From positions 1 through 22,999 of the forward strand of contig BFBT01000007.1 of assembly GCA_003112755.1 (NCBI GenBank): a DNA stretch of 22,999 nucleotides, given 5' to 3'. The position numbers and the translations under genes are program-made. Each line of letters starts with the position of its first letter. Within the stretch, counting starts at the first letter, position 1. Under the pieces are notes generated by a model that saw only the letters and a program-made list of their open reading frames with translations, was not told where the DNA came from and did not search any database. Below are positions 7,041-20,667 of the stretch, piece by piece. Origin of the DNA: Lawsonibacter asaccharolyticus (GTDB lineage Bacteria > Bacillota > Clostridia > Oscillospirales > Oscillospiraceae).

Positions 7041-7083
7041 ATCAGCCACCCCTTCCTGCGCCTGTGCACCGCCGTTTTCTTCC

Positions 7084-7114
7084 ATTATAGCATACCATTC
7101 CGCAATCGTGGAAT
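7084..7114 (-). promoter_or_regulatory. Promoter and dyad operator of the XRE regulator
   Basis: On the minus strand TATAAT lies at 7089-7084. A dyad ATTCC-N8-GGAAT at 7097-7114 covers the region where the -35 (TTCCAC or TCCACG) would be. This is the expected geometry for self-repression and for control of divergent transcription. Confidence 0.55.
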
Positions 7115-7556
7115 TTTTCGTTTTTGGAGCCGATTTCCTACTTTATGGACATACGGGCGGGGAAACAAAAATGTTCTATGATATGGGTAGTTCATCGATG
7201 GATCAAATCCAATCGAATGACCGGCCTGTATGGGATATGCCCCCCGGCGATGTAGCGCGGCGACCTGCGGTGAGGAAATGGAGGAACCTTGACTGCAGCG
7301 AGCGTACCAATGGGGGCGAAACGCCGCTGAAAAAGCCAGGGGCAGGAACGACATTAAGGAGAACCGGCGAATATGGACACCGAATTGATACCGAAACACA
7401 ACAATCCGATAGGGCATAGTCTGCCCTATCCGTACTACTACGGGAGATTTCAGGGCGGCTCTACGGCTGTTTTCCCCTTGAAAATCGCCCCGAAACACAA
7501 CACAAAAATCTGCTGTCCGTCCACTCCGGCTGTTACGGCTGACTGGCGGATTTTTT
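7115..7556 (+). other. Leader region of the Tn1549-like block with hairpins
   Basis: Mostly non-coding. It includes a perfect hairpin GATAGGGCA / TGCCCTATC (7408-7430, 5-base loop) and a second imperfect stem (CCG.CCA..CCG with CGG.....TGG.CGG, 7517-7549) followed by six Ts (7551-7556). The latter looks like an intrinsic terminator or attenuator just before the MPRMSKKRK gene. A short open frame overlaps these structures and is listed separately. Confidence 0.45.
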
Positions 7557-7558
7557 GA
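7373..7558 (+). CDS. Possible 61-aa leader ORF (doubtful)
   Basis: An open frame beginning MDTELIPKHNNPIGHSLPYP with AAGGAG eleven bases upstream. It runs through both hairpins of the leader and ends in the T run at 7551-7556. Composition is not typical of a folded protein and I recognise no family. It could be a leader peptide whose translation controls the attenuator-like structure, or chance. Confidence 0.25.
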   Translation: MDTELIPKHNNPIGHSLPYPYYYGRFQGGSTAVFPLKIAPKHNTKICCPSTPAVTADWRIF

Positions 7559-7572
7559 TGATAGGAGCCAAT

Positions 7573-7754
7573 ATGCCGAGAATGTCAAAAAAGAGGAAGC
7601 TGGAGCTGTCCTTCTTCCTCAACGAGCGCGGGCGGGTGGCGCACAACATCCTTTGCCGGAAATGCCGCCACGCCTGCAACAGAGCTTCCGGGCCATTGTG
7701 ATCCTCTGCCCCCACTACCATTCCAAGCGGGCCAAGGGAAAGGAGGACACCTGA
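7573..7754 (+). pseudogene. Conserved small protein of Tn1549-like elements, one frameshift
   Basis: Starts MPRMSKKRKLELSFFLNERG then RVAHNILCRKCRHAC, with AGGAG five bases upstream of the ATG at 7573. The original frame stops shortly afterwards. One base out of frame the reading continues QSFRAIVILCPHYHSKRAKG and ends KEDT at a TGA (7752-7754) that directly abuts the ATG of the next gene. The restored protein of about 60 residues, with C-x2-C and later cysteine/histidine positions (CRKCRHAC...CPHYH), looks like a small zinc-binding protein. From memory, proteins of this form accompany the RepA-like gene in Tn1549-type conjugative transposons. One missing base between TGCAA and CAGAG would explain the break. 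Confidence 0.7.
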
Positions 7755-8081
7755 ATGAATACGGAATTTATGACCGCCGACACCAACCTGCCGCCCTGTC
7801 TGCCCCTGCCGGGGGCCATGCTGGGGCTGGTGAGCAGTACCGCCAAGGTCATGTATGCCAAGCTGCTGGGCGCTGTTCTCACAGCGGGCGTGGAGGACGC
7901 CAACGGGATGTTATTTGTCCGTTTCCCCCTTGCAGAGCTGGCCGTGGCGCTGGGGCGCAGTACGCAGACCTGCAAGCGGGCCTTGCGGGAGCTGGAGGCC
8001 GCTGGGCTGATCCTGTGGGTGCGTCAGGGAATTGGAGCACCGAACAGGATTTATGTGCTGGTGCCGAAGAAGCGGGATTGA
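7755..8081 (+). CDS. RepA-type winged-helix protein (short form)
   Basis: A 108-residue protein: MNTEFMTADTNLPPCLPLPG, AMLGLVSSTAKVMYAKLLGA, then FVRFPLAELAVALGRSTQTC with a winged helix-turn-helix ending RALRELEAAGLILWVRQGIG and APNRIYVLVPKKRD. This is the N-terminal DNA-binding domain found in replication initiator protein A of Tn1549-like elements; the usual longer C-terminal part is absent. The start directly follows the upstream stop (TGAATG), so coupling is likely. Its last codons contain the -35 box of a promoter. The 3' half is repeated at 13549 and 18097, so this is the most complete of three copies and the likely source of the repeats. Confidence 0.8.
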   Translation: MNTEFMTADTNLPPCLPLPGAMLGLVSSTAKVMYAKLLGAVLTAGVEDANGMLFVRFPLAELAVALGRSTQTCKRALRELEAAGLILWVRQGIGAPNRIYVLVPKKRD

Positions 8082-8182
8082 AGAAAATCCTGTAGCACGG
8101 TATAATGAAAAGTAAGAAATCCTCGCCGCCATACAGTGAGGAACGCCGGGAGGCGGCGAGGAAGTTTGCGAGGGAACACAAT
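7940..8182 (+). repeat. 5' cargo module, copy 1 (most complete)
   Basis: The 3' half of the RepA-type gene, its overlapping promoter, and the segment encoding PPYSEERREAARKFAREHN. It recurs, in part or whole, at 8765-8846, 13549-13690, 18097-18310 and 18463-18545. Each copy lies immediately upstream of a different, mostly AT-rich cargo gene. Confidence 0.75.
8078..8106 (+). promoter_or_regulatory. Cargo promoter inside the repeated 5' module (copy 1)
   Basis: TTGAAG (8078-8083) and TATAAT (8101-8106) lie exactly 17 bases apart, overlapping the stop of the RepA-type gene. The same boxes with the same spacing occur at 18221-18249. It would drive the Imm1-like gene at 8185. Confidence 0.7.
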
Positions 8183-8197
8183 ATATGTGGGTATTAA
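8105..8197 (+). CDS. Short ORF MKSKKSSPPYSEERREAA (module-encoded, 30 aa)
   Basis: A basic 30-residue reading whose core PPYSEERREAARKFAREHN recurs in four places in the window. In the copy at 8645-8846 it forms the C-terminus of a longer, damaged protein (DDDGWGYKTFEIDKGRFCFR before it), so this version is probably a deletion remnant with a fortuitous ATG. That ATG overlaps the TATAAT of the promoter, so only read-through transcripts could express it. It ends inside the Imm1-like gene. Confidence 0.35.
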   Translation: MKSKKSSPPYSEERREAARKFAREHNICGY

Positions 8198-8550
8198 AAT
8201 GGAATTTAACAGGTAAGCTGGTAACATCTTCTTGTGATGAAGTGATTAAAAAAATCAACAGTTTAAATCAAGAATACCAAGACAAACAACCTGTTATTAT
8301 TGAAATCGAAACATCTTCAAAAAAATCTTTGACAATAGGCGTAGGTACTAAAGAAGGCTTAAGCTGCCTGGTATACTTTCCTTTCCCAGATGGTTTAGGA
8401 TCTATGCACCCTGTTCCCCACAATAGTCAATATCGCGATTGCGATAAAAGTATATTTTTTTGGCTAAATTCTTACGACTCAGAATTTGAAATGAAAGATT
8501 TGATTACTTATGAAGAAGCAGTAAATGAAGTGATATTTTTTGCAAAATGA
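8185..8550 (+). CDS. Imm1-like immunity protein
   Basis: A 121-residue, AT-rich gene unlike its GC-rich flanks. It reads MWVLKWNLTGKLVTSSCDEV, IIEIETSSKKSLTIGVGTKE, then GLSCLVYFPFPDGLGSMHPV and later SIFFWLNSYDSEFEMKDLIT followed by YEEAVNEVIFFAK. The order (L-T-I-G-x-G, then x-L-x-Y-F, a central loop, and a C-terminal helix with Y-E-E-A-x-x-E) matches my recollection of the Imm1 family, immunity proteins for polymorphic toxins. No cognate toxin is present, so it would be an orphan immunity gene protecting against kin or neighbour toxins (inference). The start at 8185 uses GCGAGGGAA from the repeated module as its ribosome binding site, ten bases away, and the promoter at 8078-8106 lies just upstream. 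Confidence 0.6.
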   Translation: MWVLKWNLTGKLVTSSCDEVIKKINSLNQEYQDKQPVIIEIETSSKKSLTIGVGTKEGLSCLVYFPFPDGLGSMHPVPHNSQYRDCDKSIFFWLNSYDSEFEMKDLITYEEAVNEVIFFAK

Positions 8551-8583
8551 TGATGTTAGTGCTAATTTAAGCTGGGAGCCAGA

Positions 8584-8621
8584 TTGACTATTGAATAATC
8601 GTAAAATCCCTTTAGGAATTA
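8584..8621 (+). repeat. Shared cargo 3' element, copy near Imm1-like gene
   Basis: TTGACTATTGAATAATCGTA followed by AAATCCCTTTAGGAATTAG. A closely related stretch occurs at 16582-16618 behind the DUF1266 gene, and its CCCTTTAGGAA core recurs in the hairpin at 9479-9517 behind the SUKH gene. Confidence 0.5.
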
Positions 8622-8644
8622 GTCCAACTCATAAAAATCAAGAG

Positions 8645-8846
8645 AACAGCAGAAACAGACTGGGAGCCTACGCCCGCCGCTGGCCGGAGTTGCCGAAAGG
8701 TGGACGATGACGGCTGGGGTTACAAGACCTTTGAGATCGACAAGGGCCGCTTCTGTTTCCGGCTGACCGCGCCATACAGCGAGGAACGCCGGGAGGCGGC
8801 AAGGAAGTTTGCGAGGGAACACAATGCCATAGCGAACTTCAAGTGA
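8645..8846 (+). pseudogene. C-terminal fragment of a mobile-element gene, frameshifted
   Basis: The reading NSRNRLGAYARRWPELPKG changes frame at about 8700 to DDDGWGYKTFEIDKGRFCFR, then LTAPYSEERREAARKFAREH and NAIANFK before the TGA at 8844-8846. There is no start or ribosome binding site, so this is the 3' end of a longer gene. Its last part is the repeated PYSEERREAARKFAREHN segment, which suggests that the repeat comes from the C-terminus of this unknown protein. I do not recognise the family. It sits directly upstream of the SUKH gene, as the equivalent segment does for the other cargo genes. Confidence 0.6.
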
Positions 8847-8872
8847 AAGAGTTAGAGGCAAGGAGGGACTTT

Positions 8873-9487
8873 ATGGACACCTTTATAGACAAATGCTTTA
8901 ATTCTTTGAGCAGTAATTTCCCGGAGAAATTTTTGGATGGCTTGCAAAAATCAACAATTACAGATAAGGATATTCATGTGGCGGAAGAAAATTTAGGATA
9001 TAGGTTTCCTACAATTTTTAAGGACTTTTTGAAAAGTTATGTTTGCCCATTCATGTGCTTATATGGGAAGTTTAGCGGCTATTCAGCAAGGAGAGGTTTA
9101 ACTTACTCCGTTGAAGATGAAGAATATAAATATATTGAAGATAAACTTCCATTCTCCGTTATTAAATTGCAGTTAGAGGGCTTTCCAAAAGAGCCAGAAA
9201 AGATTGCAGAGTATATTGAATTAGTTACATGGAATGAAGCCGCTCAATTTGGATATTTGTATATCGGGGAATTTTACGGTGACTATCAACTTTTCTATAA
9301 CTTAATTACGGATGAAATTATTCAAATAGACCATGAAGAAACACCCTTTCCCCCACAAGCTCAAGACGATATGGAGGAATATGCCACTGTACTTTTTAAG
9401 TCATTTTCTGATTTTTTGCGTTGCTTCTTTTTAGGTGATATTTATAATGAAGACACATTAGAATTTGAAGGCGGACGAGAAGCCTAA
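8873..9487 (+). CDS. SUKH (SMI1/KNR4)-like immunity protein
   Basis: A 204-residue, AT-rich gene. After an N-terminal helix (MDTFIDKCFNSLSSNFPEKF) it shows the SUKH signature DKDIHVAEENLGYRFPTIFK followed by DFLKSYVCPFMCLYGKF (the I..AE..LG..FP..f..FL..Y motif), a middle part with LYIGEFYGDYQLFYNLITDE typical of the later beta strands, and an acidic tail. SUKH proteins are immunity proteins for nuclease and other polymorphic toxins. AGGAGGG sits six bases upstream of the ATG at 8873, which fixes the start. No toxin is adjacent. The gene follows a copy of the repeated segment and is followed by a perfect 18-bp hairpin and a terminator that is duplicated at 16672. It is intact. Confidence 0.7.
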   Translation: MDTFIDKCFNSLSSNFPEKFLDGLQKSTITDKDIHVAEENLGYRFPTIFKDFLKSYVCPFMCLYGKFSGYSARRGLTYSVEDEEYKYIEDKLPFSVIKLQLEGFPKEPEKIAEYIELVTWNEAAQFGYLYIGEFYGDYQLFYNLITDEIIQIDHEETPFPPQAQDDMEEYATVLFKSFSDFLRCFFLGDIYNEDTLEFEGGREA

Positions 9488-9517
9488 ACCCTTTAGGAAC
9501 TAAAGGGTTTAGGCTTC
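9479..9517. repeat. Perfect 18-bp stem hairpin over the SUKH stop codon
   Basis: GAAGCCTAAACCCTTTAG (9479-9496) and CTAAAGGGTTTAGGCTTC (9500-9517) are exact complements around GAA. The SUKH stop codon lies in the left arm. There is no T run, so it is not a standard terminator. It contains the CCCTTTAGGAA core also found behind the Imm1-like gene. Confidence 0.7.
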
Positions 9518-9568
9518 TATACATAGCCTAACGGCCATGTATTCGTGCGCTCTGCGAGGCGGGACGGG

Positions 9569-9604
9569 ACGGCGGATTGCCAGATGGAGCAACTCGCCGT
9601 TTTT
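9569..9604 (+). terminator. Intrinsic terminator of the 3' module (copy 1)
   Basis: ACGGCG pairs with CGCCGT, with an inner TTGC/GCAA pairing around CAGATGGA, followed by TTTTT. The surrounding 100 or so bases recur at 16625-16740, so the terminator belongs to a repeated 3' module. Confidence 0.65.
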
Positions 9605-10122
9605 GCGTCGCTGCGCTCCGTCCAAGGGGCTGGTCTCGCCTGCCAGCTCGGTCGGCGCTTCAAGGCGTTTCACGCCTTGAGGTCGCCACCGGCGACCCGC
9701 GCCCCCTTGCGCGGCTTATGCCGCTTACTGCGTCTGTCCCCCTTCCGAGGGCCTTATAACGAACACCAACACCCTGACCGCTCACCGGGAACGCCCCAGA
9801 GGACGGTCTTTTTTTCACCCATTTTCAGCAAGGGAAGGCAACACCTTTTACATTTCCCGCCGCAGACAGGAGCAGACCCACACCCAACGCTGGGACAGGG
9901 ATATGGAGCGGTAAGGGACTTCCTATTTCCTGCCACCGGTGTTAAAATGAAATCAGTCTTACGGGCTGCGCCCCGCTGGGACAAAGTGTCCCAAAGCCGG
10001 GGGCATGATCTCCCCGCCCAACCTCTGGCCTTTTGTCCAGCCAGCGGACGGCTTGCCAAAGAGAAAGAGGGAATTGTGATAAAAGATAAAAACCGCAACA
10101 AAAAATCAATCCAGCCGCAGCT
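9605..10122. other. Gene-free mobile-element backbone segment
   Basis: GC-rich, with no convincing gene. The long plus-strand open frame across it is low-complexity and has no ribosome binding site. It holds the palindrome TGGGACA-AAG-TGTCCCA (9977-9993) and the CCTCTGG...TTTGTCCAGCC motif (10022-10042), which is also found at 6156 and 13431. It resembles intergenic backbone of a conjugative element; an origin of transfer cannot be shown. Confidence 0.4.
9977..9993. repeat. Palindrome TGGGACA-AAG-TGTCCCA
   Basis: Perfect 7-bp arms around AAG. Related half-sites occur at 5534-5565. A protein-binding site is likely, but its partner is unknown. Confidence 0.5.
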
Positions 10123-10563
10123 GTGATTGCCGTTTTTCTGTGGGTAATCGTCCTAACGATAGTTCTCCATGCTTATTGTCAACAGGGTGGGACGCTTGCA
10201 AAGGTTGTGGAAGTGGCGTTGATTGTACTTACCCTGGTGGATTTATCGCCTGTATCGTCATTTATGTTATCCCGATCCGGCGTTTGGCAGCGCGAATTGA
10301 CAAGGCAGCTTTTCAGTATCAGTTGACCCATGACGGGGAGGCATATCTGGCTGAATTGGAAGAATGCAAGGAAATGCCCGGCGTGAAACGAGCTGTCTTT
10401 ATGATGTGCCAGCAAAAGACTACTTGGAGGTTTTGAGAATCAGGGCTCTTCGGGAGATGGGCCGGACAGCCGAGAGCCGCGCTCTGCTGGAAACAGTAAA
10501 ACAGGAAACTACCAACGATTTGACGCGGCAGGCATTAAAAACAGAGGAAGAACAACTACCATA
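10123..10563 (+). pseudogene. Membrane-anchored protein, two frameshifts, unrecognised
   Basis: About 140 residues when restored from three frames: a hydrophobic N-terminus (VIAVFLWVIVLTIVLHAYCQ, then VVEVALIVLTLVDLSP), then IVIYVIPIRRLAARIDKAAF and QYQLTHDGEAYLAELEECKE, and finally YDVPAKDYLEVLRIRALREM followed by GRTAESRALLETVKQET and a stop at 10561. The breaks lie near 10260 and 10400. Two membrane spans followed by a helical, charged domain are likely. The start is unsure; GTG at 10123 is the first candidate and has no clear ribosome binding site. Its end lies about 30 bases ahead of the lipoprotein gene, so the two may have been co-transcribed. I do not recognise the family. Confidence 0.5.
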
Positions 10564-10594
10564 AGCCAAGCACAGGCTTTCAGGAGGAGCAACC

Positions 10595-11682
10595 ATGGAA
10601 AAACGAATGAAGCGGCGATTATGCCTGACTGTCATGGCGGCCCTGATGCTGCTGGTTCTGACGGGCTGCTATCACCCCGCCAGCCGCGGGGAGCTGATCG
10701 AATGGTTCCAAGAAACCTATACTGATGCGCCGTTGGTGGTTTCCCGGGAATGGGTGGAGGGCCGTGGGGCGGGCGGTAGCTATGAGGCATATCTCAAGGA
10801 CAAGCCGGATCTGGTGTTTCACTTGGAAAGCAAATGGGTCTATGTGGGAGAACACGCCGAGTACCACAATGCCACCGATTTTAGCCGGGTCTACGGCGAA
10901 TACTATCTGGCCGAGTACCAGATAGAGCGGCCCTCCAATACTGGCAAGTTGTTAAAGACCATTGGGATCAGGAGAGTTTCACTCTGGAGACCGTCTATGA
11001 CAACCCGGAGGGTTTGGAGGCAGCGGCAGCGGAGCTTTTGGATTTCCACGCTTTTCTGGCGGAGCAGTGCCCGGAGGCGGATGTGCGGTACCTGTTCACC
11101 TTCCGCTCCCCGGTCTGCCCAGATCGGCCCAGTGTGTCGCTTGGCTCTGGTGTTGTGTACCTGTCAGCAGGAGCGGGGATGGGGCCATCCGGCAGGAGAT
11201 CGGGGACTTGACAGCGGAACTGGCGGTGTGGTCTGTGTCCTACGGCCTCCATCCGGAGTGGTTCTCTCCGGAGGAAGATGGAGGCAGCCCTGGACTACAC
11301 CCAGACGCCGGAATACGACGGCCAGAACATCTACATCGGGGCATGGCTTGTCTCCGATCCGGAGCGGGGTGATCTGCGAGTCCCCGCTCACCGCCCGGAA
11401 AGCGAGCGGTACACCTTTGCTGAAATTTACCGGCTGCTGGAGGCCTGGAGTGGGAAACTTTGGAAGGCACCGAGACAGACTTTTCTTTCACCCGGAGCGG
11501 ACGGAAGCCTCTATGCCCTTTCCTATGACTTGTGGGAGGACGAGTATGGACATATGCTCAGCCGCTGTACGAAGGACGGTGAGCCGCCGCAAAACTGCCC
11601 GGACGATGGTACGTTCCCCATCTGGTGGAGCCTGGAGGAGATGACCGGCCTGGAGTTCCAAACGGGGAACGAACCACAATAA
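10595..11682 (+). pseudogene. Lipoprotein gene with several frameshifts
   Basis: The N-terminus MEKRMKRRLCLTVMAALMLL followed by VLTGC is a clear lipoprotein signal peptide with lipobox LTGC (lipidated Cys25). The mature part starts YHPASRGELIEWFQETYTDA. The frame is lost near 10920, where the next frame reads DRAALQYWQVVKDHWDQESF and EAAAAELLDFHAFLAEQCPE, again near 11170 (GDGAIRQEIGDLTAELAVWS), and again near 11275 (MEAALDYTQTPEYDGQNIYI, then WLVSDPERGDL and a C-terminus ending MTGLEFQTGNEPQ). A further pair of shifts between 11450 and 11490 is possible. The restored protein is about 360 residues. GGAGG lies upstream of the ATG. The family is unknown to me. A second, shorter relative lies at 11876. 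Indels, not nonsense changes, are what break it. Confidence 0.7.
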
Positions 11683-11875
11683 CCTACCCGCGGCCCCGGC
11701 CCTGACGGAATTGTGGGAGCTGCCTTCTGGCCCAGGAGAAGAGCTTCCGTAGGCTGATACTTCGCCGATACGCAACAGAACCGCCGGGAGCTTTGGGTCG
11801 CTGAACAGGTTTTTATAGAGGAAATGTCCTAAATATTTATTACATATATCGTTGAACTCAAAGGAGGGACAGGTG

Positions 11876-12117
11876 GTGAGAAAAAAGAGGAAAAGTATGT
11901 TTGGGCGCGACGGCGGTGCTGTGTACTCTGTCCGGTTGCGGACGTCCGTCATGCCACCCGCGGGGAACTGATCGACTGGTTCCGGGGGAACTACGATGGG
12001 AAATGTGATTTATCTGGAAGGACAGCCGGAGCACACGGCACTATCTATGGCAATGGGCTGACAGACACTTTGATCAGCGGCCCTCCTTTTGAGCGGTTCT
12101 CAGCTTGCGAAAACTGA
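11876..12117 (+). pseudogene. Paralogous lipoprotein fragment
   Basis: The reading TAVLCTLSGCGRPSCHPRGE then LIDWFRGNYDGKCDLSGRTA matches the start of the lipoprotein at 10595 (LTGC...PASRGELIEWFQETYTD), with a lipobox-like LSGC. The first codons (GTGAGAAAAAAGAGG, after AAGGAGGGAC) are out of frame with it, so at least one indel is present. The reading ends at 12115-12117. It is a degraded tandem duplicate, and only the first quarter of the protein is recognisable. Confidence 0.6.
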
Positions 12118-12538
12118 TCAGGAAAAGAGGCTTATTGTATGGCTGGCGGAAAAGGATCAAAGTGCAGTTGGTATGGGAAACCGTGGGCTTTTCCGTCCTG
12201 GATATGCCATGGGACAGGAACACCCTTGAGCAGAATCGGTCATTTCTGCGCAGGACAGTTGAGCAGGCGAAACTGAGGAGAGGATGGGAGCTGCTTGACT
12301 ACCAGCCTTCGGAGGAATTGCTTCTTCCCAGTCTGGAGAAGTTCTTATTCCTGATCGCGCCAATTAAAACAGGCAGGTATACAGCCGGATTGTTTAGAAA
12401 GCATGGCTCGCAGAGGCCGCAGAAATGACCCGGTAAGATGCGGCTTTCCGCGCTGCCCCAGGCATCACACGCTGCTGACCGTATTTGGCTGTCAGATTTG
12501 CAACCATGATCATTCGGATAATCGGGGGATTGAATGGA
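12118..12538 (+). other. Degraded stretch between lipoprotein remnant and next gene
   Basis: No intact gene. An open frame of 107 codons at 12105-12428 includes protein-like text (RTVEQAKLRRGWELLDYQPS, then LLPSLEKFLFLIAPIKT) but has no good start or ribosome binding site and may be a frameshifted remnant. Nothing else is recognisable. Confidence 0.35.
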
Positions 12539-13101
12539 ATGGCCGCGAAATTTGAAGTTTACATTGTAAGCGGGAACTATCTCAGCATTCAATTATGTCA
12601 AGCGATATTCCCTCATGTGGGTGAAATACAGTTTTCTGGAACATGCACCCGTCTGGGATAGCTGGCAGCCAACCAAAGAAATCATGGTTTATCTACAAGA
12701 TGACAAGGAAATGGAAGCCTGCCTGAGCAGCGGCAAAATCCTTCACTTTTATGGCGCAGCAGGCCCCCCACATGATCGGAGCAAGGCAGTATTTTGAATA
12801 TGGTGTGTTTTGCACAGAGCTATGGATCGACACATCACGTTTGCCTGACTTGGATACGAATATGCCAAATGATTTTTGTAATTCTTTTTGCCAGTCCGTC
12901 AGAAGGAATATGCTGGGGCTGGATCAAACAGTGGAGATGAAATTCTTTGCTATGGGCACAGAAATGAGCATTGACTTTTCTGAACAGCTGGAAGAGTGTA
13001 TCAATGAAAAGCCATGGTGTCATGTGCTATTGGAGCGAGAAAACCGGCAACCATTAAAAGCGGAGAAATCGTGGCTCCGAGCCATGAAGCACAGGCTTTA
13101 A
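12539..13101 (+). pseudogene. Unrecognised cytosolic protein, two frameshifts
   Basis: Restored length is about 185 residues: MAAKFEVYIVSGNYLSIQLC, QAIFPHVGEIQFSGTCT, then in the next frame DSWQPTKEIMVYLQDDKEME and ACLSSGKILHFYGA, and in the third frame MIGARQYFEYGVFCTELWID through to WLRAMKHRL. Breaks lie near 12650 and 12755. It has no signal peptide or membrane span; it looks like a compact alpha/beta protein such as an immunity protein, but I recognise no family. GGGGG precedes the ATG at 12539. The last codons overlap the AAGCACAGGCTTTAAGGAGG block that also precedes the lipoprotein at 10595, so the downstream gene was probably translated from the same message. Confidence 0.55.
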
Positions 13102-13114
13102 GGAGGGATAGGTG

Positions 13115-13380
13115 GTGACAAAGAAAGAAAATATTGCCTAATTGTAGGTGGAACCGTTATCCTGGCTATCGTCTTGCTTTTCTGCTTTATTCCTTATTAT
13201 ATCCGTTTCACATTTTTTTACTGTCAGAAAATGAGGTGTTGGCAGGACTTGAGGCACGCTATGGCATGGAATTCGAGGTACAGGATGTGCAGCCGGATAA
13301 AAAATGTAGAGACACTTCTGTAAAAGGCACAACAGATTATCAATGATGGTTATGATTATTACGCTATGCATGGGAAAAAT
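13115..13380 (+). pseudogene. Single-span membrane protein remnant, multiple frameshifts
   Basis: After AAGGAGGGATAGGTG, a GTG start gives VTKKENIA and then a stop. One frame over, the reading is LIVGGTVILAIVLLFCFIPY, a membrane anchor, followed by YIRFTFFYCQK. Another frame continues VLAGLEARYGMEFEVQDVQP and DKK, and a final fragment reads INDGYDYYAMHGKN. At least three shifts are needed. It was probably a small anchored extracytoplasmic protein like its lipoprotein neighbours. The family is unknown. Confidence 0.5.
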
Positions 13381-13394
13381 CTGCCCTTGATTTC

Positions 13395-13414
13395 GCTCTA
13401 AATCAGTTTAGAGC
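13395..13414. repeat. Perfect 8-bp hairpin
   Basis: GCTCTAAA (13395-13402) and TTTAGAGC (13407-13414) around TCAG. It lies at the 3' end of the lipoprotein/membrane gene group, in the same relative place as the larger TAAA-containing hairpin behind the SUKH gene. Confidence 0.5.
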
Positions 13415-13548
13415 TTAACCATAGCCTCCACCTCTGGAAACTTTGTCCAGCCAGAAACGGACAACCAAACACTACTCACCAAGGTGCGGCCAGCAGACCG
13501 CGCCTTTCCTATGCCTGAAACTGCCCCCCCCGCGAATTTCCCCTCGCA

Positions 13549-13690
13549 GAACCGACCGTGGCGCTGGGGCGCAGTACGCAGACCTGTAAGCGGGCCTTGC
13601 GGGAGCTGGGACGATGGACTCTGATCCTGCGGGTGCGCTGGGAAATCAGAGCGCTGAACAGGATTTATGTCCTCATTCCAAGAAGATTAA
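13549..13690 (+). pseudogene. RepA-type winged-helix fragment (5' module, copy 2)
   Basis: The reading VALGRSTQTCKRALRELGRW then TLILRVRWEIRALNRIYVLI and PRRLN is the second half of the protein at 7755. It has no start codon or ribosome binding site, its 5' part is missing and it has diverged in the middle, so it is non-functional as a gene. It lies immediately upstream of the LemA operon promoter, as the other copies lie upstream of their cargo. Confidence 0.75.
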
Positions 13691-13729
13691 ACCGTTGAAA
13701 AACAGAAGAATAAGCCGCCCAAAACAGTT

Positions 13730-13757
13730 TTACAAAAGATTTCAGGTTTGCTATAAT
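13730..13757 (+). promoter_or_regulatory. Promoter of the LemA-DUF3137-DUF1266 operon
   Basis: TTACAA (13730-13735) and TATAAT (13752-13757) with a 16-base spacer, about 55 bases ahead of the LemA start. It is not the same sequence as the TTGAAG promoter of the other modules. Confidence 0.55.
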
Positions 13758-13813
13758 AAACGCAGGAAATTGAGAGTTTTGACTAATATTTCAATGTGCG
13801 GGAGGGTTTCATA

Positions 13814-14557
13814 ATGTGGATAGTTATTTTAGTGGCAGTCATCGCAGTACTACTCATTCTTTACATTAAGTTCTATAACCGTTTGCAGCGGCTTTCCGTC
13901 AAGGTGCAGGAAGGCAGCGCGGGCATTGATGTTGCTTTGGAGAAACGCTACGATATGCTGTCGGAAGAAATTGAGGCAGTAAAAAAGTATCTGGCGCATG
14001 AGTATCAGATCTACACAGAAGTCACATCTACCCGCGCAGGGAAAGAACTGAACGAAAGCATATTTCAGGAAAAGAAACAACTGTCTGAGGAAGCGGTCAA
14101 AGCAATCAGCGAGACGATTGCCGAACAGCAAAAGCAGATGGAAACAATCCGGCAGCAGTTGGATCAGCAGCGAGGGCAGGATAACTCTCTTGGAGCGGAA
14201 ACACCAGGTATGGGAGGCGACGGGCTGCTCGGACATCAGGTAAGCCTGGATCGGAAACTTGGCTTGCTTACTTCCGCCCAGCTGGGACTCACCGGGGTCA
14301 ACTCTGCCATCAATGCACTGGCTGAGCAATACCCAACTCTTTATTCCTATGCGTCCATGCAGCAATTTTCAGCAGGATATTTTGACGCAGAAGAACACTT
14401 ACAAGCGGCGAGACGGTTGTACAACTCTAATGTATCTTTGTATAACCAGAGAATTAACACATTTCCTTATCTGCTTTTAGCAAAACTTCATGGTATGAAA
14501 GAAGCGAAGTTTTATACTGTGGAAGAAAAGAAAAAAGACTTTAAGGTGCAGTTTTGA
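13814..14557 (+). CDS. lemA: LemA family membrane protein
   Basis: An intact 247-residue protein. It starts MWIVILVAVIAVLLILYIKF, the single N-terminal membrane anchor typical of LemA, followed directly by YNRLQRLSVKVQEGSAGIDV, the hallmark N.L......V.....I.V.L..R, and a long helical region. The C-terminus contains NSAINALAEQYPTLYSYASM, then RRLYNSNVSLYNQRINTFPY, the conserved Y-N-x-x-V-x-x-Y-N-x-x-I-x-x-F-P signature. A large insert in the middle (QLDQQRGQDNSLGAETPGMG) makes it longer than most. GGGAGGG precedes the ATG at 13814; the earlier ATG at 13796 lies within the leader and lacks one. It overlaps or closely abuts the DUF3137 gene. The biochemical role of LemA is unsettled; envelope-stress functions have been proposed. 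Confidence 0.9.
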   Translation: MWIVILVAVIAVLLILYIKFYNRLQRLSVKVQEGSAGIDVALEKRYDMLSEEIEAVKKYLAHEYQIYTEVTSTRAGKELNESIFQEKKQLSEEAVKAISETIAEQQKQMETIRQQLDQQRGQDNSLGAETPGMGGDGLLGHQVSLDRKLGLLTSAQLGLTGVNSAINALAEQYPTLYSYASMQQFSAGYFDAEEHLQAARRLYNSNVSLYNQRINTFPYLLLAKLHGMKEAKFYTVEEKKKDFKVQF

Positions 14558-14577
14558 GAAGAAAGGAAAAAAGATGT

Positions 14578-15564
14578 ATGAAAATGGTGGAACAAAATAT
14601 CAGCGGTGTCAAGCTGGAACAGTTGCGGCAGAACGCTGTTAAAAAGCATAAGATTCTGCGGAAGCTGCTCCCGGTGTGCCTGATTTTATTTATAGGATTG
14701 ACACTGGTAAAAAACGATTTTTGTTTTGTCTCCATCAGTGAATATGGCTTTGGAGACCCAGCAACTCAGGGGGCCTTTTGGGGTCTGATCGGAGGCATGA
14801 TGCTCAGTGTGATTTTTGCGGGTGCTGTTTTTGGTTTTTACTATATGCTGGTCTATAAAAAAGCTTATGACCTCTTTTGTATCAATTTCAAAAACAAATA
14901 TGTGTTGGACACTCTCCGACAACTGCCGGATTTTTCCGAACTGCGCTACAATGCCGGAGGCGGTCTTTCTTATGAGGAAATGAACCGTTTAAAGTTAATC
15001 CCCGGAGGCCAGTCGGTCTTTTATCAATCGTCGGATGAACTGTCCGGCAAGCTGGATGGAGTCCCCTTCCGGGCTGTCAATGTCTGCACTGGCGAAAAAG
15101 TTTCCGCAAGAAGTTCTACCCCCAAAATTCTATTTGAGGGACAGGTCATTGTTTTTTCCTATTTTGATAATCGGAAGATCAGTGAGGGTTTTGTCCAGGT
15201 GTTTTCCAAAAAAGCTCTGTCTAAACTCAGGGAAACCAGAGTCCCGTTGCCAATTCAGACAGAAAACAGTGTATTCAATGAAAATTTTGCGGTGTTTGCA
15301 GAGAACGAGCAGAATGCTTTTTACATTCTGACCCCCCAGGTGATGGAGCAGATTACAGCTTTTCAGGAAGCTATGGAAGGAAACATTTATCTTTCCTTTT
15401 CTGAAAAATCTCTATATGTAACTTGCAGCCAGCTTCGCAACCCTTTTCATATTTATATAGATATTCCTGTTGAAGAACAGCGTCAAAAGATTGCCGGCGA
15501 TACGGCGATTCTCCGCAGTGCAAAGGAAATTCTCATAAGAGCCGGACAAAGCAGTCCGAAATAA
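14578..15564 (+). CDS. DUF3137 membrane protein
   Basis: An intact 328-residue protein. Two hydrophobic segments near the N-terminus (KLLPVCLILFIGLTLVKND and GLIGGMMLSVIFAGAVFGFY) are followed by a cytosolic or surface domain with YDLFCINFKNKYVLDTLRQL, SYEEMNRLKLIPGGQSVFYQ and FEGQVIVFSYFDNRKISEGF, matching DUF3137 as I know it. DUF3137 genes are frequently next to lemA, which supports the assignment. The ATG at 14578 follows AAAGGAAAAAAG; the nominal TTG start at 14554 overlaps the lemA end. Function is unknown. Codon use and GC are even with lemA, and no indels are seen across both genes, unlike the surroundings. Confidence 0.85.
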   Translation: MKMVEQNISGVKLEQLRQNAVKKHKILRKLLPVCLILFIGLTLVKNDFCFVSISEYGFGDPATQGAFWGLIGGMMLSVIFAGAVFGFYYMLVYKKAYDLFCINFKNKYVLDTLRQLPDFSELRYNAGGGLSYEEMNRLKLIPGGQSVFYQSSDELSGKLDGVPFRAVNVCTGEKVSARSSTPKILFEGQVIVFSYFDNRKISEGFVQVFSKKALSKLRETRVPLPIQTENSVFNENFAVFAENEQNAFYILTPQVMEQITAFQEAMEGNIYLSFSEKSLYVTCSQLRNPFHIYIDIPVEEQRQKIAGDTAILRSAKEILIRAGQSSPK

Positions 15565-15595
15565 GAAGGCAGTCCTTGAAAGGCGGTAGTATCAT

Positions 15596-16519
15596 ATGGG
15601 ATGTACAATTGTGTTCGTTATCCTGCTGTTATTGGAATGGGCATCCTCTGTTTTCTGACGGGGGATATGGCGGCTTTTATCGCCCTGTCCGCTACTTTAG
15701 TCGTAGGGCTTGGTCTTGCCGGTATTCTGTATCATATCTATAAATCGAAGCAAAGACGGATGGAGAAGTATAATCCCCTATCCCCTACATTGCGCTGGAT
15801 GAATGCCGCAGGGTCGATCCTGATTGCAGCAAGTCAACATACAAATTTTCATCTGCTGGCTGGCTGGCGGTACAATAACGAATTTGACCGGGAAAGTATT
15901 AAAACAATGCTGTGGGATTATTGGGGCATTCAAGGACATGAGACAGCTATAAAGGAAATGCGCAGCCTGATCGACGAGGGAATGCGTGCCAGCTATCGGA
16001 GGAAAATGGAACTCTTGTCGCATAAATATAAGGATGCTACAGAAGTCCAGCTCATTGAGGAGGCCCGCAAAACCAATCCAAACGCAGATGAGGACAGCTA
16101 TCTGCCGAAAATGCTGATGGCCTGGCGGCGCTATGGGGAAAATGCCCTGTTAGGCTGGGACATGGGACGTTGCGCATATATCACGCAATGTTGCTATCTG
16201 GCAGGTTATATCAGTATGCAGGAAATGCTGGATCTGTGCGTGGATGCCGGGATGAAGGCACAGTCCTTTTTTCAGAATTGGAAGAAATGATGGAGAGCTA
16301 TCTGCTGGGCGCCAGTTCTGGCAGCATGAGGATAAGAATGACCCAAAATCCATGACGGCAGAACGATGGAAGCTATATGAACAGCTCTGGCAAGGAAAAA
16401 AGCCGTTCCAGGGTTCTCCGTACCTCGCTGTCCCATTCGACCAGCCCCTCTCCAAAGAGGTTATTACCAATGAATACGGTATTCTGCCGGAATACCAAAA
16501 ATATTATAATCATGGATAG
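15596..16519 (+). pseudogene. DUF1266 protein with C-terminal frameshifts
   Basis: The third gene of the trio, about 305 residues when restored. It has an N-terminal membrane segment (MAAFIALSATLVVGLGLAGI) and a domain with FHLLAGWRYNNEFDRESIKT and WGIQGHETAIKEMRSLIDEG. It continues ENALLGWDMGRCAYITQCCY LAGYIS, the G-W-D-x-x-R motif of DUF1266. Near 16272, at a run of six Ts, the frame shifts to SELEEMMESYLLGA, and at about 16310 again to QFWQHEDKNDPKSMTAERWK and onwards to YQKYYNHG, stop at 16517-16519. The exact N-terminus is uncertain: the ATG at 15596 gives MGCTIVFVILLLLEWA and then needs a shift into the main frame, while 15601 is in frame but lacks good spacing. DUF1266 function is unknown. 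Confidence 0.75.
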
Positions 16520-16581
16520 TTAGCTTTCGGTACAGAGTAAGCATGATAGAAGTGTGTACAAATACTTTGGAAATGCTAAAT

Positions 16582-16740
16582 TTGACTATTAAGTAATTGG
16601 AAAATCTTTTCAGGAACGAAATGCACACGTATATGGTCTAACAGCCATGTATGTGTGCTCTGGGAGGCGGAACGGCGGATTGCCAGATGGAGCAACCCGC
16701 CGTTTTTGCGTCACTGCGCCCCGTCCAAGGGACTGCGCCC
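16582..16740 (+). repeat. 3' cargo module, copy 2, truncated by the IS
   Basis: It begins TTGACTATTAAGTAATTGGA (compare 8584) and continues with a stretch very similar to 9519-9640, including the terminator. It ends abruptly at 16740, where the IS256-type element begins. The gene-free stretch 16520-16852 consists of this module plus the IS leader. Confidence 0.65.
16672..16707 (+). terminator. Intrinsic terminator of the 3' module (copy 2)
   Basis: ACGGCGG pairs with CCGCCGT with the same inner TTGC/GCAA pairing and CAGATGGA loop as at 9569-9604, followed by TTTTT. It would end the LemA operon transcript. Confidence 0.7.
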
Positions 16741-16788
16741 GATAATGTAAGATAAGTTGCGCAAATTGAATAGAGGATAAAAAGAGAC

Positions 16789-16854
16789 ATGGTTTGCAGA
16801 CCTCTGGTAGAATGAAGTTACCACACACCATTCTGAAAGGAGTCTGTAAACCAT
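16789..16854 (+). repeat. Leader hairpin of the IS over the transposase start
   Basis: ATGGTTTGCAGAC (16789-16801) and GTCTGTAAACCAT (16842-16854) are complementary except at one position. The right arm starts in the AAAGGAG ribosome binding site and ends in the start codon. Transcripts entering from outside would fold and mask translation initiation. Confidence 0.55.
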
Positions 16855-18043
16855 GTCCGAGAAGATTGTACAACTGAACGAGGAAGTAATCAAGGGTCAG
16901 CTCAAAGAATTGGTCCGTGGCAGCGTAGAAGAAACGCTGAATGAACTGCTGGAGCAGGAAGCGGAGAAGCTGACCCAGGCTGCCCGCTACGAGCGCAACG
17001 AAGCTCGCCAGGGCTACCGCAGCGGTCACTACGACCGGAACCTTACCACTACCTCTGGAGATGTCACGCTCCACGTACCTCGTCTCAAGGGCGTTTCTTT
17101 TGAGACGGCCATCATTGAGCGGTATCGCCGCCGGGAGAGCAGCGTGGAGGAAGCCCTCATTGAGATGTACCTTGCCGGCGTCTCTGTGCGCCGTGTGGAG
17201 GACATTACCGAGGCCCTGTGGGGCAGCAAGGTATCTCCGGCCACCATCAGTGAGCTGAACAAGAAAGCCTATGTCCACATTGAGGACTGGCGGAATCGCC
17301 CTTTACAAGGCGGCAAATATCCGTATGTCTATGTGGACGGCATCTACTTGCGGCGCAACTGGGGCGGAGAGTATGAAAATGTCGCGATTTTGGTTGCAAT
17401 CGCGGTAAATGAGGACGGATACCGTGAGGTTTTAGGTGCTGCCGAGGGCATGAAAGAAGACAAGGCCAGCTGGGTGAATTTCTTTCAGTGGCTCAAAAGC
17501 AGAGGATTGGACGGCGTGAAACTCGTTGTTGGGGACAAGTGTCTGGGAATGCTGGAAGCCGCGGGAGAAGTATTTCCTGACGCCAAATACCAGCGCTGTA
17601 CGGTCCATTTTTACCGGAATGTGTTTCCCGTTGTTCCTCGCTCCAAAGTAAAATTAGTGGCCAAGATGCTCAAGGCGATCCACGCTCAGGAAAGCAAGAA
17701 GGCCGCCCGTGAAAAGGCTAAAGCTGTGGTAACCCAGTTGAGGGAAATGAAACTGAAAGAGGCCGCCAGGAAGGTGGAGGACAGTGTTGAGGAGACGCTG
17801 ACCTACTGTGATTTTCCCTATGAGCACTGGACCCGGATTCGCACCAACAATGTGATTGAGCGGCTGAACCGGGAAATCCGCCGCAGGACCCGCGTGGTGG
17901 GGACCTTTCCGGACGGCAGCTCTGCCCTCATGCTGGTTTGCGCCCGGCTGCGCCATGTGGCAGGAACCCAGTGGGGCAACAAGAAGTACATGAATATGAA
18001 GCACTTAGAGGCGGCTTTAGAATACGCCTCTATTGCCGGCTGA
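16853..18043 (+). CDS. IS256-family DDE transposase, intact
   Basis: A 396-residue transposase of normal length for the family. The N-terminal helical DNA-binding part (MSEKIVQLNEEVIKGQLKEL, then ARYERNEARQGYRSGHYDRN) is followed by the RNase-H-like catalytic core. The likely catalytic triad is Asp162 (YPYVYVDGIYLRR), Asp228 (KLVVGDKCLGM) and Glu336 (TNNVIERLNREIRRRT). The C/H signature QRCTVHFYRNV lies between the second Asp and the Glu. AAAGGAG is ten bases before the ATG. The frame is clean throughout, so the protein is probably active. It cuts and pastes its own element through a circular intermediate, as known for the family. A leader hairpin covers the start codon. Confidence 0.95.
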   Translation: MSEKIVQLNEEVIKGQLKELVRGSVEETLNELLEQEAEKLTQAARYERNEARQGYRSGHYDRNLTTTSGDVTLHVPRLKGVSFETAIIERYRRRESSVEEALIEMYLAGVSVRRVEDITEALWGSKVSPATISELNKKAYVHIEDWRNRPLQGGKYPYVYVDGIYLRRNWGGEYENVAILVAIAVNEDGYREVLGAAEGMKEDKASWVNFFQWLKSRGLDGVKLVVGDKCLGMLEAAGEVFPDAKYQRCTVHFYRNVFPVVPRSKVKLVAKMLKAIHAQESKKAAREKAKAVVTQLREMKLKEAARKVEDSVEETLTYCDFPYEHWTRIRTNNVIERLNREIRRRTRVVGTFPDGSSALMLVCARLRHVAGTQWGNKKYMNMKHLEAALEYASIAG

Positions 18044-18096
18044 CCTCATCCAGCCAGAGTCTGCAAACCAATTTGCGCATAATTCTTGACAGTACC

Positions 18097-18330
18097 GGAC
18101 ACAGTACACAGACCTGCAAGCGGGCCTTGCGGGAGCTGGAGGACGCCGGACTGATCCTGCGGGTGCGTCAGGGAATTGGAGCGCCGAACAGGATTTATGT
18201 GCTGGTGCCGAAGAAGCGGATTGAAGAAAATCCTGCGGCACGGTATAATGAAAAGTAAGAAATCCTCGCCGCCATACAGCGAGGAACGCCGGGAGGCGGC
18301 GAGGGAACACGATCTCATAGAAAGGATGAA
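18097..18330 (+). repeat. 5' cargo module, copy 3
   Basis: Closely matches 7957-8170: the end of the RepA-type gene (STQTCKRALRELEDAGLILR, then IYVLVPKKRIEENPAARYNE), the TTGAAG/TATAAT promoter, and the PPYSEERREAA segment with a 12-base internal deletion. One base fewer in the AAGCGG run removes the normal stop and extends the winged-helix reading by a dozen residues. Its 5' end is cut by the IS. Confidence 0.8.
18221..18249 (+). promoter_or_regulatory. Cargo promoter inside the repeated 5' module (copy 3)
   Basis: TTGAAG (18221-18226) and TATAAT (18244-18249), 17 bases apart, the same as at 8078-8106. The boxes are identical although nearby bases differ. Confidence 0.7.
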
Positions 18331-18337
18331 GAAATAA
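18248..18337 (+). CDS. Short ORF MKSKKSSPPYSEERREAA (copy 3)
   Basis: A 29-residue reading ending REHDLIERMKK. Compared with copy 1, four residues (RKFA) are missing. Its stop overlaps the next start as TAATG. As in copy 1, its ATG overlaps the promoter -10, so expression would need upstream transcription. It is probably a remnant. Confidence 0.3.
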   Translation: MKSKKSSPPYSEERREAAREHDLIERMKK

Positions 18338-18465
18338 TGGAGAGTTGTTCTTGCGGTAAATATCAATATGGAGATGAAGTAAAAACTTCCAAACTCTGCT
18401 TGGCAATATGTGAAAGAGGGATTTATGGGTACAGTTTAGACATATATAAGTTTGCTTGTGAATGA
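18337..18465 (+). pseudogene. Truncated cargo gene (42 aa)
   Basis: An AT-rich reading MESCSCGKYQYGDEVKTSKL, then CLAICERGIYGYSLDIYKFA and CE before a stop where the next module copy begins. A weak GGATGAAG precedes the ATG. It looks like the 5' end of an acquired gene, possibly another immunity gene, cut off by the repeat at 18463. The family is not identifiable. Confidence 0.4.
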
Positions 18466-18545
18466 CTGCGCCATACAGCAAGGAACGCTGGGAGGCGGCG
18501 AGGAAGTTTGCGAGGAAACATAATAGCGTTGTGAAGTTATCTAAA
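18463..18545 (+). repeat. 5' cargo module, copy 5 (PYSEERR segment only)
   Basis: TGACTGCGCCATACAGCAAG and what follows correspond to 8765-8846 with scattered changes; it encodes APYSKERWEAARKFARKHN. It precedes the small secreted-protein remnant at 18563. Confidence 0.6.
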
Positions 18546-18562
18546 AGAACAGGGAGCAATGT

Positions 18563-18794
18563 ATGAAAAGAAAAATCTTATGGGGAGTTATGGCCTCTTT
18601 TATGATCATAGCGATAGCCTTGATGACGATCATGCTTATCCGAATGGCCCAAATGACCGTTCCTGGATCATCGGTGTGTCCCCGTCGGGGCCATATTACG
18701 ATGGCCTGTATATTGATCTGGTACAGGAAGCGGATCATCAGAGCTATGTGATTTAGGATGCCTTTTCATTGATGAGCACGGAGACATTTGTTGA
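18563..18794 (+). pseudogene. Small membrane or secreted protein remnant
   Basis: MKRKILWGVMASFMIIAIAL then MTIMLIRMAQMT is a signal anchor. Near 18655 the frame shifts to SWIIGVSPSGPYYDGLYIDL and VQEADHQSYVI, and a further shift would give GCLFIDEHGDIC, ending at 18794. AGGGAG precedes the ATG at 18563. A terminator follows. It is probably a truncated cargo gene of about 75 residues; the family is unknown. Confidence 0.45.
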
Positions 18795-18822
18795 CAGAAC
18801 ATAATAGGACAGATAATTTTAG

Positions 18823-18852
18823 GCCGGCTTTCGTGCAGAAAGTCGGCTTTTA
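18823..18852 (+). terminator. Intrinsic terminator
   Basis: GCCGGCTTTC (18823-18832) and GAAAGTCGGC (18838-18847) pair with one G-U around GTGCA and are followed by TTTTA. It closes the plus-strand cargo region. Confidence 0.7.
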
Positions 18853-18940
18853 TATCTCCGATATTGCGGGTGCACCGTCTCATTATGTGCTAGGATATAT
18901 TGAATGACCGTACCTCACCTCGTCATGTGACTTTATGTAG

Positions 18941-18979
18941 ACAAAGAAAACCTACACCACATAGTTGAGTGGTGTAGGT
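18941..18979 (-). terminator. Terminator of the right-hand minus-strand operon
   Basis: ACCTACACCAC (18950-18960) and GTGGTGTAGGT (18969-18979) are perfect complements with an 8-base loop. On the minus strand the stem is followed by TTTTCTTTG. It lies about 110 bases beyond the stop of the 525-aa gene. Confidence 0.7.
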
Positions 18980-19089
18980 GTATGTTCGTTTGAATCAAGG
19001 CAACAGTCTGGTAATATTTTGAACACACAGTATGTTCGTCAGTTAAGTAAAGTTCCCTACGATAGATTCTCGAATTATATAGAAAATGC

Positions 19090-20667
19090 TTAGGTAAGCG
19101 AAGAACGTAAATGTCCTGGCAGACTGCCAATCACTACATGAGAGGTTTTGTCATCCCAAAAGAAATAAATTCGCAGACAATAGAGCGCATTGTGGCTGAC
19201 GCCCTTTTTCAAGTGCCGCTCCAGCAGCCGCCGTTTTCCCCCATAGGTGATGTAATATTCATCTCCCTGCTCCAGGATATCGCTGCCCTCCCCAAAGCCG
19301 CACTCGCTTAGGCCAGGATCAACCGCGCTACAACGCTGTAAAAAGGCGTCCCGGTTGATCCGGCCCTTCCGGTAATCATAGTAGTCCTCCGCCAGCAGGA
19401 TCAGGCAACGATAGACCATGGATGGGTTTTGATAGACGGCAGATTTCAGGGCACGGACTGCCCTCGGATGCAAATAGAGACGGTCCGGATAATACTGCTC
19501 CACCCATTTTGCCATTTGCTCATAGGTCAAATCGACCGGAGGCCGTTCTGTTTTCCCGTGCTTTAACCGGGCGATTTCCCGTCTCTGACGGTCCATCATT
19601 TCCGCCATGGCCGTCATCTGCTTTTGAAGCGCCTGACTGTCCTCCCGACAAGCTGCCATATCGGCGTAGTATGTCTCGGCCAACGCCTTATATTCTTCCT
19701 TGGATTCATATACCCGGCGCAGCTGCTCCCGACACTGTGCCAGCAATTCCTCCGTGCTTTCCTCCGTACTGGCGGAGAGCATACGGGCCTGCTCCGCTTC
19801 TATGTAAAACCGAACGCCAAACCTGTTCCAATCAATGACCTGCGCGACGCTTGCAGGTGAATCGCTTTTTCCAGCTCCTTTTCAAATTCGCCGGGGTAAA
19901 AATTCCTTTTGATGGTTTGAGCTGTGTAGAGCGGATGTTTGTAGGGGTCATCTGCTTCAAAATCAATCGAACTGGGCCAGTAGATACGGACGGCGCCACC
20001 AAAGCAGGACCACTCGTCCTCAACGATCCGGCTAAGCTCATAGGTTGCATCCCAGTCTATAACCATTACATGGGCGCTGTCAACCAGAGCTGCGGCCAGT
20101 TTCCATCCGTCCACTAAATATCCGTTCTGACCAAGCGCAGGATTTTTGGCTTGAGAAATCAGGACAACGGGCAGCCGTCGGTCCTCGGCACACAAGAGGC
20201 CATCAGTTTACTGACTTTGTGCGTTGAAATATGCTGGGGCTCTGTCGAGAGCCGGAGGCCATCATTCAGGCCAACCTCGTCTATCAGCTGGCGCACAAAT
20301 ACCGGCGACCTGGGCACAGGCTTTGCCTTGGAGCCAGGCTCGCGGAGAAAAACGGTTTCCCGGACCGCAAGGAGCAGGCTGTGACGATATGGCTTGATCT
20401 CAGCCTCAACAGTGTCCCGGATGCCGCTTTCAAATACAGAGGAACGAAGGGTGAAAAAGTGTTCCTCCGGCTGGTAAATCACCGCAACAGACCGTCCTTT
20501 TTTCGTTGACCCGCTCACAGTCGCCGGAAACTCCGGGAGCGGAATGCAGTCGATGACTTCCCTGCGCATCCAGCATAGAGGATCCACGCCGCAGCCATAA
20601 ATTTTTCGTCATTGATTCCGTCTATTTCGGAGCCAATCCATGCCGCAAACTGATAGATGTTTTTCAT
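19090..20667 (-). pseudogene. Multidomain protein of about 525 aa, unrecognised, three frameshifts
   Basis: Restored from MKNIYQFAAWIGSEIDGIND at 20667 (GGAG nine bases upstream). Frames change near 20565 (to REVIDCIPLPEFPATVSGST), near 20185 (to AEDRRLPVVLISQAKNPALG) and near 19835 (to AQVIDWNRFGVRFYIEAEQA). The N-terminal half contains LAAALVDSAHVMVIDWDATY and GGAVRIYWPSSIDFEADDPY, an alpha/beta domain. A coiled coil follows (about residues 280-360, including ALQKQMTAMAEMMDRQRREI). The last 60 residues read DEYYITYGGKRRLLERHLKK, LRIYFFWDDKTSHVVIGSLP and GHL, a compact beta-rich domain reminiscent of RelE/HigB-like folds (impression only). No enzyme motif is certain. It is the last gene of a three-gene operon with a terminator. 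No nonsense codons are seen, so it may be functional if the indels are sequence errors. Confidence 0.6.

Follow-up and report, generated by a model that had tools for sequence, protein, structure and literature searches.

In integrons, the Pc promoter inside intI drives exchangeable genes. A comparable arrangement, in which a promoter-like site would lie inside a conserved element gene and be followed by exchangeable genes, is proposed for Lawsonibacter asaccharolyticus on contig BFBT01000007.1 (GCA_003112755.1), where the ends of two mobile-element genes, a RepA-type gene and a gene that we call ORF2, recur in front of different cargo genes. The window analysed is this entire 22,999-bp contig (C7); the genome measures 4.28 Mb and is assembled in 7 contigs. 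Unlike in the integron, no integrase or attC was noticed here, although no integron search was made. The recombinase-associated acquired interbacterial defence (rAID) arrays, described only for Bacteroidales in the papers considered, resemble the locus in the conserved motifs between genes and perhaps in their co-oriented short genes, SUKH immunity genes included (PMC12247911). The locus differs in that its linkers are pieces of a gene of integrative mobilizable elements (IMEs), that it belongs to another phylum, and that its cargo is not confined to immunity; serine recombinases and an IS256-type transposase are identified, whereas no tyrosine recombinase was recognised, though no dedicated search was made. 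IMEs, integrative and conjugative elements (ICEs) and the accretion of cis-mobilizable elements (CIMEs), as in IME_Rho_tet and Tn4451-type elements, offer likenesses in serine recombinases, variable cargo and decaying tandem accretion, but in the passages of PMC5704250 and PMC12904643 considered, no conserved gene end with a promoter is given as the boundary of a cargo slot, and at the present locus the slots are repeated and most of the backbone is gone. In the tandem esaG/tipC immunity arrays, homology blocks likewise lie between neighbouring genes and genes are gained and lost, but there the homology resides in paralogous immunity genes and their intergenic regions (PMC9484751), whereas at this locus it sits in linkers that are no part of the cargo genes, and these genes are not related to one another. 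A literature search limited to open PMC papers found no description of the ORF2 slot.

Two parallel blocks and their linkers

Genes were read in contig C4, as C7 is indel-rich (80 gap openings between the two, 55 in C7 and 25 in C4) and the frames of C4 are longer, several that are broken in C7 being open there. In C4, block I runs L1, an Imm1-like gene (134 aa), L2, a SUKH gene (204 aa) and R, and block II runs L1, an 84-aa gene, L2 with the middle of ORF2 deleted, a 188-aa gene, L3 and a 195-aa gene; the linkers L1, L2, L3 and R are the conserved intergenic motifs of the locus. The linkers of the two blocks stand in the same order and are identical at 195/204 (96%), 79/95 (83%) and 56/62 (90%) positions, whereas the cargo proteins are non-homologous (best mutual match E 0.12). 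The same scaffold around different genes is the strongest sign at the locus of cargo replacement, which it suggests may have taken place. Within the window the two copies of L1 are ~95% identical, and the blastn E-value of 1e-92 between the blocks argues that this likeness is not due to chance. An earlier note on this DNA, which reported repeats at the locus and different cargo behind repeated mobile-element gene ends, is confirmed in its observation and partly supported in its interpretation.

The common part of the linkers is ORF2, a protein of 97 aa at full length in genome G287 (loci L030/L114). The PYSEERREAARKFAREHN segment comes from the C-terminus of ORF2, and the 3′ part of the module around the TTGAAG-17-TATAAT site of L1 originates from ORF2; L2 combines a CCTTTAGGAA tail with an ORF2 truncated at its 5′ end, to which metagenome protein P0059 is a close counterpart. 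The own genome yielded only fragments of ORF2 and no intact copy. The RepA-type gene end, which the earlier note counted in its docking sequence, is not this common part, the modules in genomes G605 and G367 having no RepA end. Of the further copies listed in that note, the one at 8765 is the end of the truncated ORF2 of L2, and the one at 13549 retains a RepA end and lacks the TTGAAG module, the LemA trio behind it having a separate TTTACA-17-TATAAT site (Table 1). A GAGGG in the ORF2 remnant of L1a may serve as the ribosome-binding site of the next gene. The RepA-type protein is a short winged helix-turn-helix (wHTH) protein, similar to the N-terminal part of longer proteins of RepA-like type.

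The product of the gene at 8185 has a predicted fold like that of an immunity protein of the type VI secretion system, and the Imm1 family is matched by 3/15 of its relatives, though not by the protein of the window itself; it and the SUKH product would probably act in immunity. The model of the 188-aa C4 protein is helical (pLDDT 88.5) and has no match in the PDB at E≤0.001, a PADLOC scan of 6 proteins returned weak matches only (best E 0.0015), and the locus holds a lipoprotein-like gene as further cargo. The two truncated genes of the earlier note are indeed truncated in the window, but they appear to be deletion products; in C4 the 84- and 195-aa frames are open, with the 188-aa gene between them. 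On the right, R follows the SUKH gene, the LemA trio and the cargo of G287, with fold z from −2.6 to −3.9, and the copy at 9514-9632 is 84% identical to that at 16630-16740 and 87% to that of G287.

ORF2 and the promoter-like module in other genomes

Promoter-like sites are no more frequent in the window than in shuffles (2 found, 2.5 expected), so the support for a promoter is conservation. The TTGAAG-17-TATAAT sites at 8078 and 18221, which the earlier note called identical, are so in their hexamers, and these recur in diverged copies as well, but the spacers agree at 15/17 positions only. The hexamers are identical in the own genome (G000), G605, G212 and G367, with spacers that agree at 6-12/17 positions (6-10/17 among G000, G605 and G212 alone). 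In the modules of these last three, taken for the invariance test as those found without using the promoter, 34/62 columns do not vary, and all 12 columns of the hexamers are among them (hypergeometric P 2.5e-4). The site probably functions as a promoter. A TTGAAG-17-TATAAT sequence also stands at the ORF2 start of G287 (L114 7411-7439), a likeness that is suggestive only of an ORF2 origin for the promoter part. A mini-ORF that begins at TATAATG was weighed as a possible small protein but rejected, because its ATG overlaps the −10.

The search with the 243-bp repeat that the earlier note had proposed gave matches in 38/400 family, 11/64 genus and 25/394 order genomes (E≤0.001, own included), in sets that overlap and with at most 2, 12 and 2 candidates scored per genome, so that copies can be missed. 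These matches are mostly separate pieces of the RepA end or the ORF2 end, and outside the own genome blastn covers the junction only in G212, with the RepA end attached, and in G605, which belongs to another family and has no RepA end. The module pattern with ≤2 mismatches occurs in 4/400 family genomes (own, G212, G367 and G161), against 0 matches for the reversed-pattern control in the same 400; the G367 module has neither a RepA end nor a clear ORF2 end. The G161 match (1 mismatch, uninspected) was taken as chance. A sequence model run on 35 chosen genomes matched 5, of which G000, G212, G367 and G605 do so by construction, the model having been built from their modules, and the fifth is the ORF2 5′ end of G287 (E 0.0065). 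The gene after the module differs from genome to genome (G212 has one of 204 aa, G605 one of 368 aa and G367 one of 646 aa), and the exact module is rare. The genes at 10595-11682 and 13134-13346 of the window are related (42% and 44%) to one and the same 646-aa protein, encoded behind the promoter module of G367 (L220:5966-7906).

Relatives of the RepA-type protein occur in 95/400 family genomes (E≤0.001, own included), and a search of the genome contigs with this protein gave 1 locus. ORF2 has no NCBIfam or Pfam match; among 2227 candidates, 2220 are relatives at E≤0.001, of which 120 are listed. In plasmids, two short matches were obtained with the full 243-bp query and none with the module alone or with the cargo, whereas ORF2 by tblastn matched 1 plasmid record and 3 phage records; phages gave no match by DNA. 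In viral contigs, one pattern search gave 6 matches (uninspected) and two others none, and of the related-loci searches, one with ORF2 gave one locus and another none, while that with the cargo gave none.

ORF2 is matched in 45/300 family genomes (own included), and of the 40 regions fetched, 37 for ORF2 matches and 3 for other matches, 38 contain an ORF2 match. ORF2 is usually intact in these regions and the gene behind it varies widely; L115 has DUF3847 and a MobA_MobL gene after its cargo, and in L153, which has no ORF2, DUF3847 follows the RepA-type gene. A scan of 16 cargo proteins left 4 below the Pfam cutoff and 12 above it, the latter comprising an RlmA-type methyltransferase, SdpI, APH, peptidase S11/beta-lactamase2, sigma-70, HTH, radical SAM, RrnaAD, YspA, two C5 methyltransferases and a D12 methyltransferase. 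Cargo after ORF2 in the scanned relatives is mainly of resistance, modification and regulatory type, with Erm-type genes also present, and as only 1/16 of the proteins (SdpI-like) recalls immunity, the slot is general and not an immunity slot. Of the immunity/cargo capture site proposed in the earlier note, the immunity-like character of two cargo genes of the window is supported, but the cargo of the relatives scanned is mainly of other kinds. One and the same RlmA-type methyltransferase region follows ORF2 in L115-L119, L121, L042 and L205, and in L121 a radical-SAM gene comes after it.

Just past the ORF2 stop, an extended −10 motif, TTCA..TG-N-TAT, was counted by script in 24/47 post-ORF2 rows, several of which are the same place fetched twice; 22 of the 24 have a similar ORF2 tail. 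Loci L129 and L131, where the ORF2 match ended early, were dropped from the rows, and L237 and L126, where the motif lies behind a different ORF2 tail, were left out of the alignment. From the 47 rows, nine segments with similar ORF2 tails were chosen by eye so that each distinct downstream sequence was represented once; their mean pairwise identity falls from 0.71 directly behind the stop to 0.49-0.53 over the motif and 0.26-0.31 past 45 nt.

Explanations of the array

We lean, with modest confidence, to the explanation that the repeated module is the edge of an IME cargo slot, and that such slots piled up, were partly re-filled by recombination and then eroded. ORF2 in these IMEs precedes a variable cargo gene, and incoming elements or fragments would share with the resident copy the ORF2 end on one side and the hairpin-bearing segment on the other, so that recombination across these shared edges could add or replace the gene between them. 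The edge would also bring transcription, through the TTGAAG-17-TATAAT with which the shortened ORF2 begins in the lineage of the window, and through the extended −10 motif just past the ORF2 stop in the common IME subgroup. In the own genome the element backbone would have been largely lost while slots with Imm1/DddI-like, SUKH, LemA and uncharacterised genes piled up, and short-homology deletions and an insertion sequence (IS) would then have eroded the array. In its favour are the two blocks with matching linkers around unrelated cargo, the varying cargo behind intact ORF2 in relatives, the invariant hexamers, the recurrence of R and the serine recombinases left of the array. Such an explanation gives a definite edge that can be searched for (the 3′ end of ORF2 and the promoter-like site near it), behind which exchangeable genes of gut Bacillota elements, resistance-type and immunity-type included, would be kept. 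It makes testable both the immediate expression of a newly acquired gene and the collection of orphan immunity genes in Gram-positive gut bacteria.

Several observations weigh against it. All 38 ORF2 loci fetched elsewhere carry ORF2 once and without an array, the exact promoter module was seen, besides the own genome, only in G212, G605 and G367, and the extended −10 motif is lacking in 23/47 rows (a number that includes L127, which ends at a contig edge). L2 and L3 do not carry the TTGAAG module, and the promoter part matches ORF2 weakly, as the E-value of the model match in G287 indicates. The shorter linkers (62 bp at 90% and 95 bp at 83%) are near the ~70 bp for recombination in Bacillus subtilis that is given in a title in the reference list of PMC9484751. 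A simple terminator scan called no terminator at the R sites of the window or of G287, whose copy has TTCTT in place of TTTTT, and the putative terminator activity of R is for this reason a guess. The claim of the earlier note that genes are added or exchanged through homologous repeats is likewise not borne out directly, since two short-homology deletions are all that was directly observed to differ in structure between the versions of this locus; no exchange event is seen, and homologous recombination is the presumed mechanism of an exchange that remains an inference.

Passive accretion followed by decay, in which serial IMEs lost their backbones and left the ORF2 and RepA ends as fossils with no role in capture or expression, is unlikely, if to be reckoned with. 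It accords with the deletions and the IS visible at the locus and with the single ORF2 of the loci fetched elsewhere, and accretion of IMEs with subsequent decay is described (PMC5704250); against it, the two blocks keep the order of their linkers around unrelated cargo, the hexamers are conserved within a diverged module, and the promoter-like segment after ORF2 is conserved before nine different downstream sequences. That the ORF2 end is instead an attachment site, at which a recombinase (e.g. the serine type encoded at 315-3396) inserts cargo in an integron- or rAID-like manner, we regard as improbable: the junctions of the own copies lie close to the last ORF2 codons and serine recombinase genes are found left of the array, but the end of homology varies by copy, and in the common IME subgroup homology continues for ~45 nt after the stop, though no search aimed at core sites or inverted repeats at the joins was made. 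Only a very slight chance is left to an assembly artefact, in which the repeats would be joined or collapsed copies of one element. In its favour, the window is a redundant, indel-rich contig of a chromosomal locus assembled several times: its positions 1-14524 match the end of C3 and 3640-22999 the start of C1, and C4 is matched as well. However, C4 spans C3 sequence into C1 sequence, so that C7, C3, C4 and C1 represent one locus, and the same repeats are present in the same places in C3, C4 and C1 as far as each reaches, which rules out an assembly join; similar modules in other genomes point the same way. The artefact is largely refuted for the repeats, whereas the two deletions in C7 and C1 could still be artefactual. 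Relative to C4, these deletions (902 and 526 bp, at 18438 and 18747) carry 3-nt repeats at their joins, TTA and TAT, respectively, and one assembly thereby holds two versions of the same locus.

A wider form of the cargo-slot explanation, that a widespread family of gut IMEs has at the ORF2 3′ end a general promoter-bearing slot, which serves as an integrase-free expression platform and leaves arrays, is put forward tentatively, as possible rather than probable. We hold at the same tentative level that the slot would have a terminator-like right bound in at least one lineage, and that resistance, immunity and modification genes would be swapped in it by homologous recombination. Metagenome data, which consist of protein sequences, speak for the cargo-slot explanation through the truncated-ORF2 linker, which occurs after a different leading sequence in P0059, P0049, P0098 and P0115, through the mosaic-looking ORF2 of P0011, and through P0123, in which the Imm1-like gene (read from the N-terminus only) apparently lies behind another version of the ORF2 end. 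In P0170 and P0189 the G287-type cargo is joined to the 188-aa protein, and in P0131 window ORF 5639 is joined to the Imm1-like protein; such fusions point to deletions between neighbouring cargo genes, or may be assembly chimeras. P0190, P0137 and P0191 are further fusions of this kind, each joining halves of two distinct genes, as though deletions at short homologies were frequent in such arrays.

Coordinates and further features of the locus

Table 1. Features of the window, in order of position (positions refer to C7 unless C4 is named).
Feature	Position	Strand	Remarks
Four adjoining serine-recombinase-type frames	315-3396	-	Left locus end; read at C4 9582-13935
pemK RNA motif	3616-3696	-	RF02913, 68.8 bits, gathering 34.8
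Intact short wHTH/RepA-type gene, 108 aa	7755..8081	+	HTH_24 above cutoff; 3′ end is the left part of L1a
Linker L1a: RepA-type end, promoter-like site, shortened ORF2	7958..8161	+	195/204 identical to second copy in C4
Promoter-like TTGAAG-17-TATAAT	8078..8106	+	Hexamers 12/12 identical in G605, G212, G367
ORF2 3′ end remnant	8128..8184	+	GAGGG, possible RBS of next gene
Imm1/DddI-like immunity gene (putative)	8185..8587	+	134 aa in C4; frame broken in window
Linker L2: tail and 5′-truncated ORF2	8601..8846	+	Open as 85 aa in C4
SUKH-family gene, 204 aa	8873..9487	+	PF09346, 27.2 bits, cutoff 25.4
Hairpin at SUKH stop	9484..9512	+	z -5.45; uncalled by simple terminator scan
Right linker R, hairpin then TTTTT	9514..9632	+	Fold z -2.64; uncalled by simple terminator scan
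RepA-type end remnant alone, without TTGAAG module	13537..13685	+	83% identical
Separate promoter-like TTTACA-17-TATAAT	13729..13757	+	Before LemA trio, directly after RepA-end remnant
LemA (PF04011), DUF3137 (PF11335), DUF1266 (PF06889) cargo	13811..16519	+	DUF1266 gene frame-broken in window
Second right linker R with hairpin	16630..16740	+	Fold z -3.05
Mutator/IS256-type transposase gene	16853..18043	+	PF00872; short inverted repeats both sides
Linker L1b: RepA-type end, promoter-like site, shortened ORF2	18102..18304	+	Second L1 copy
Promoter-like TTGAAG-17-TATAAT	18221..18249	+	Hexamers same as 8078 copy
Start of 84-aa gene	18337..18438	+	Cut by 902-bp deletion relative to C4
Linker L3: ORF2 3′ end only	18463..18538	+	ORF2 end also at 8764-8839
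Start of 195-aa gene	18563..18747	+	Cut by 526-bp deletion relative to C4

Resolvase/Recombinase domains score above the Pfam cutoff in 4/4 frames scanned at C4 9582-13935. No relaxase or mobilization gene was recognised on reading the frames of the window, of which no profile scan of all frames was made, and the pemK RNA is the sole match of an Rfam scan of the window. The end of the transposase gene lies directly left of L1b. Far from the array, a lone remnant of the RepA end with stops (L108, G000:C1:2403584-2403739) retains 79% protein identity, and the sequence that follows resembles a tRNA gene.

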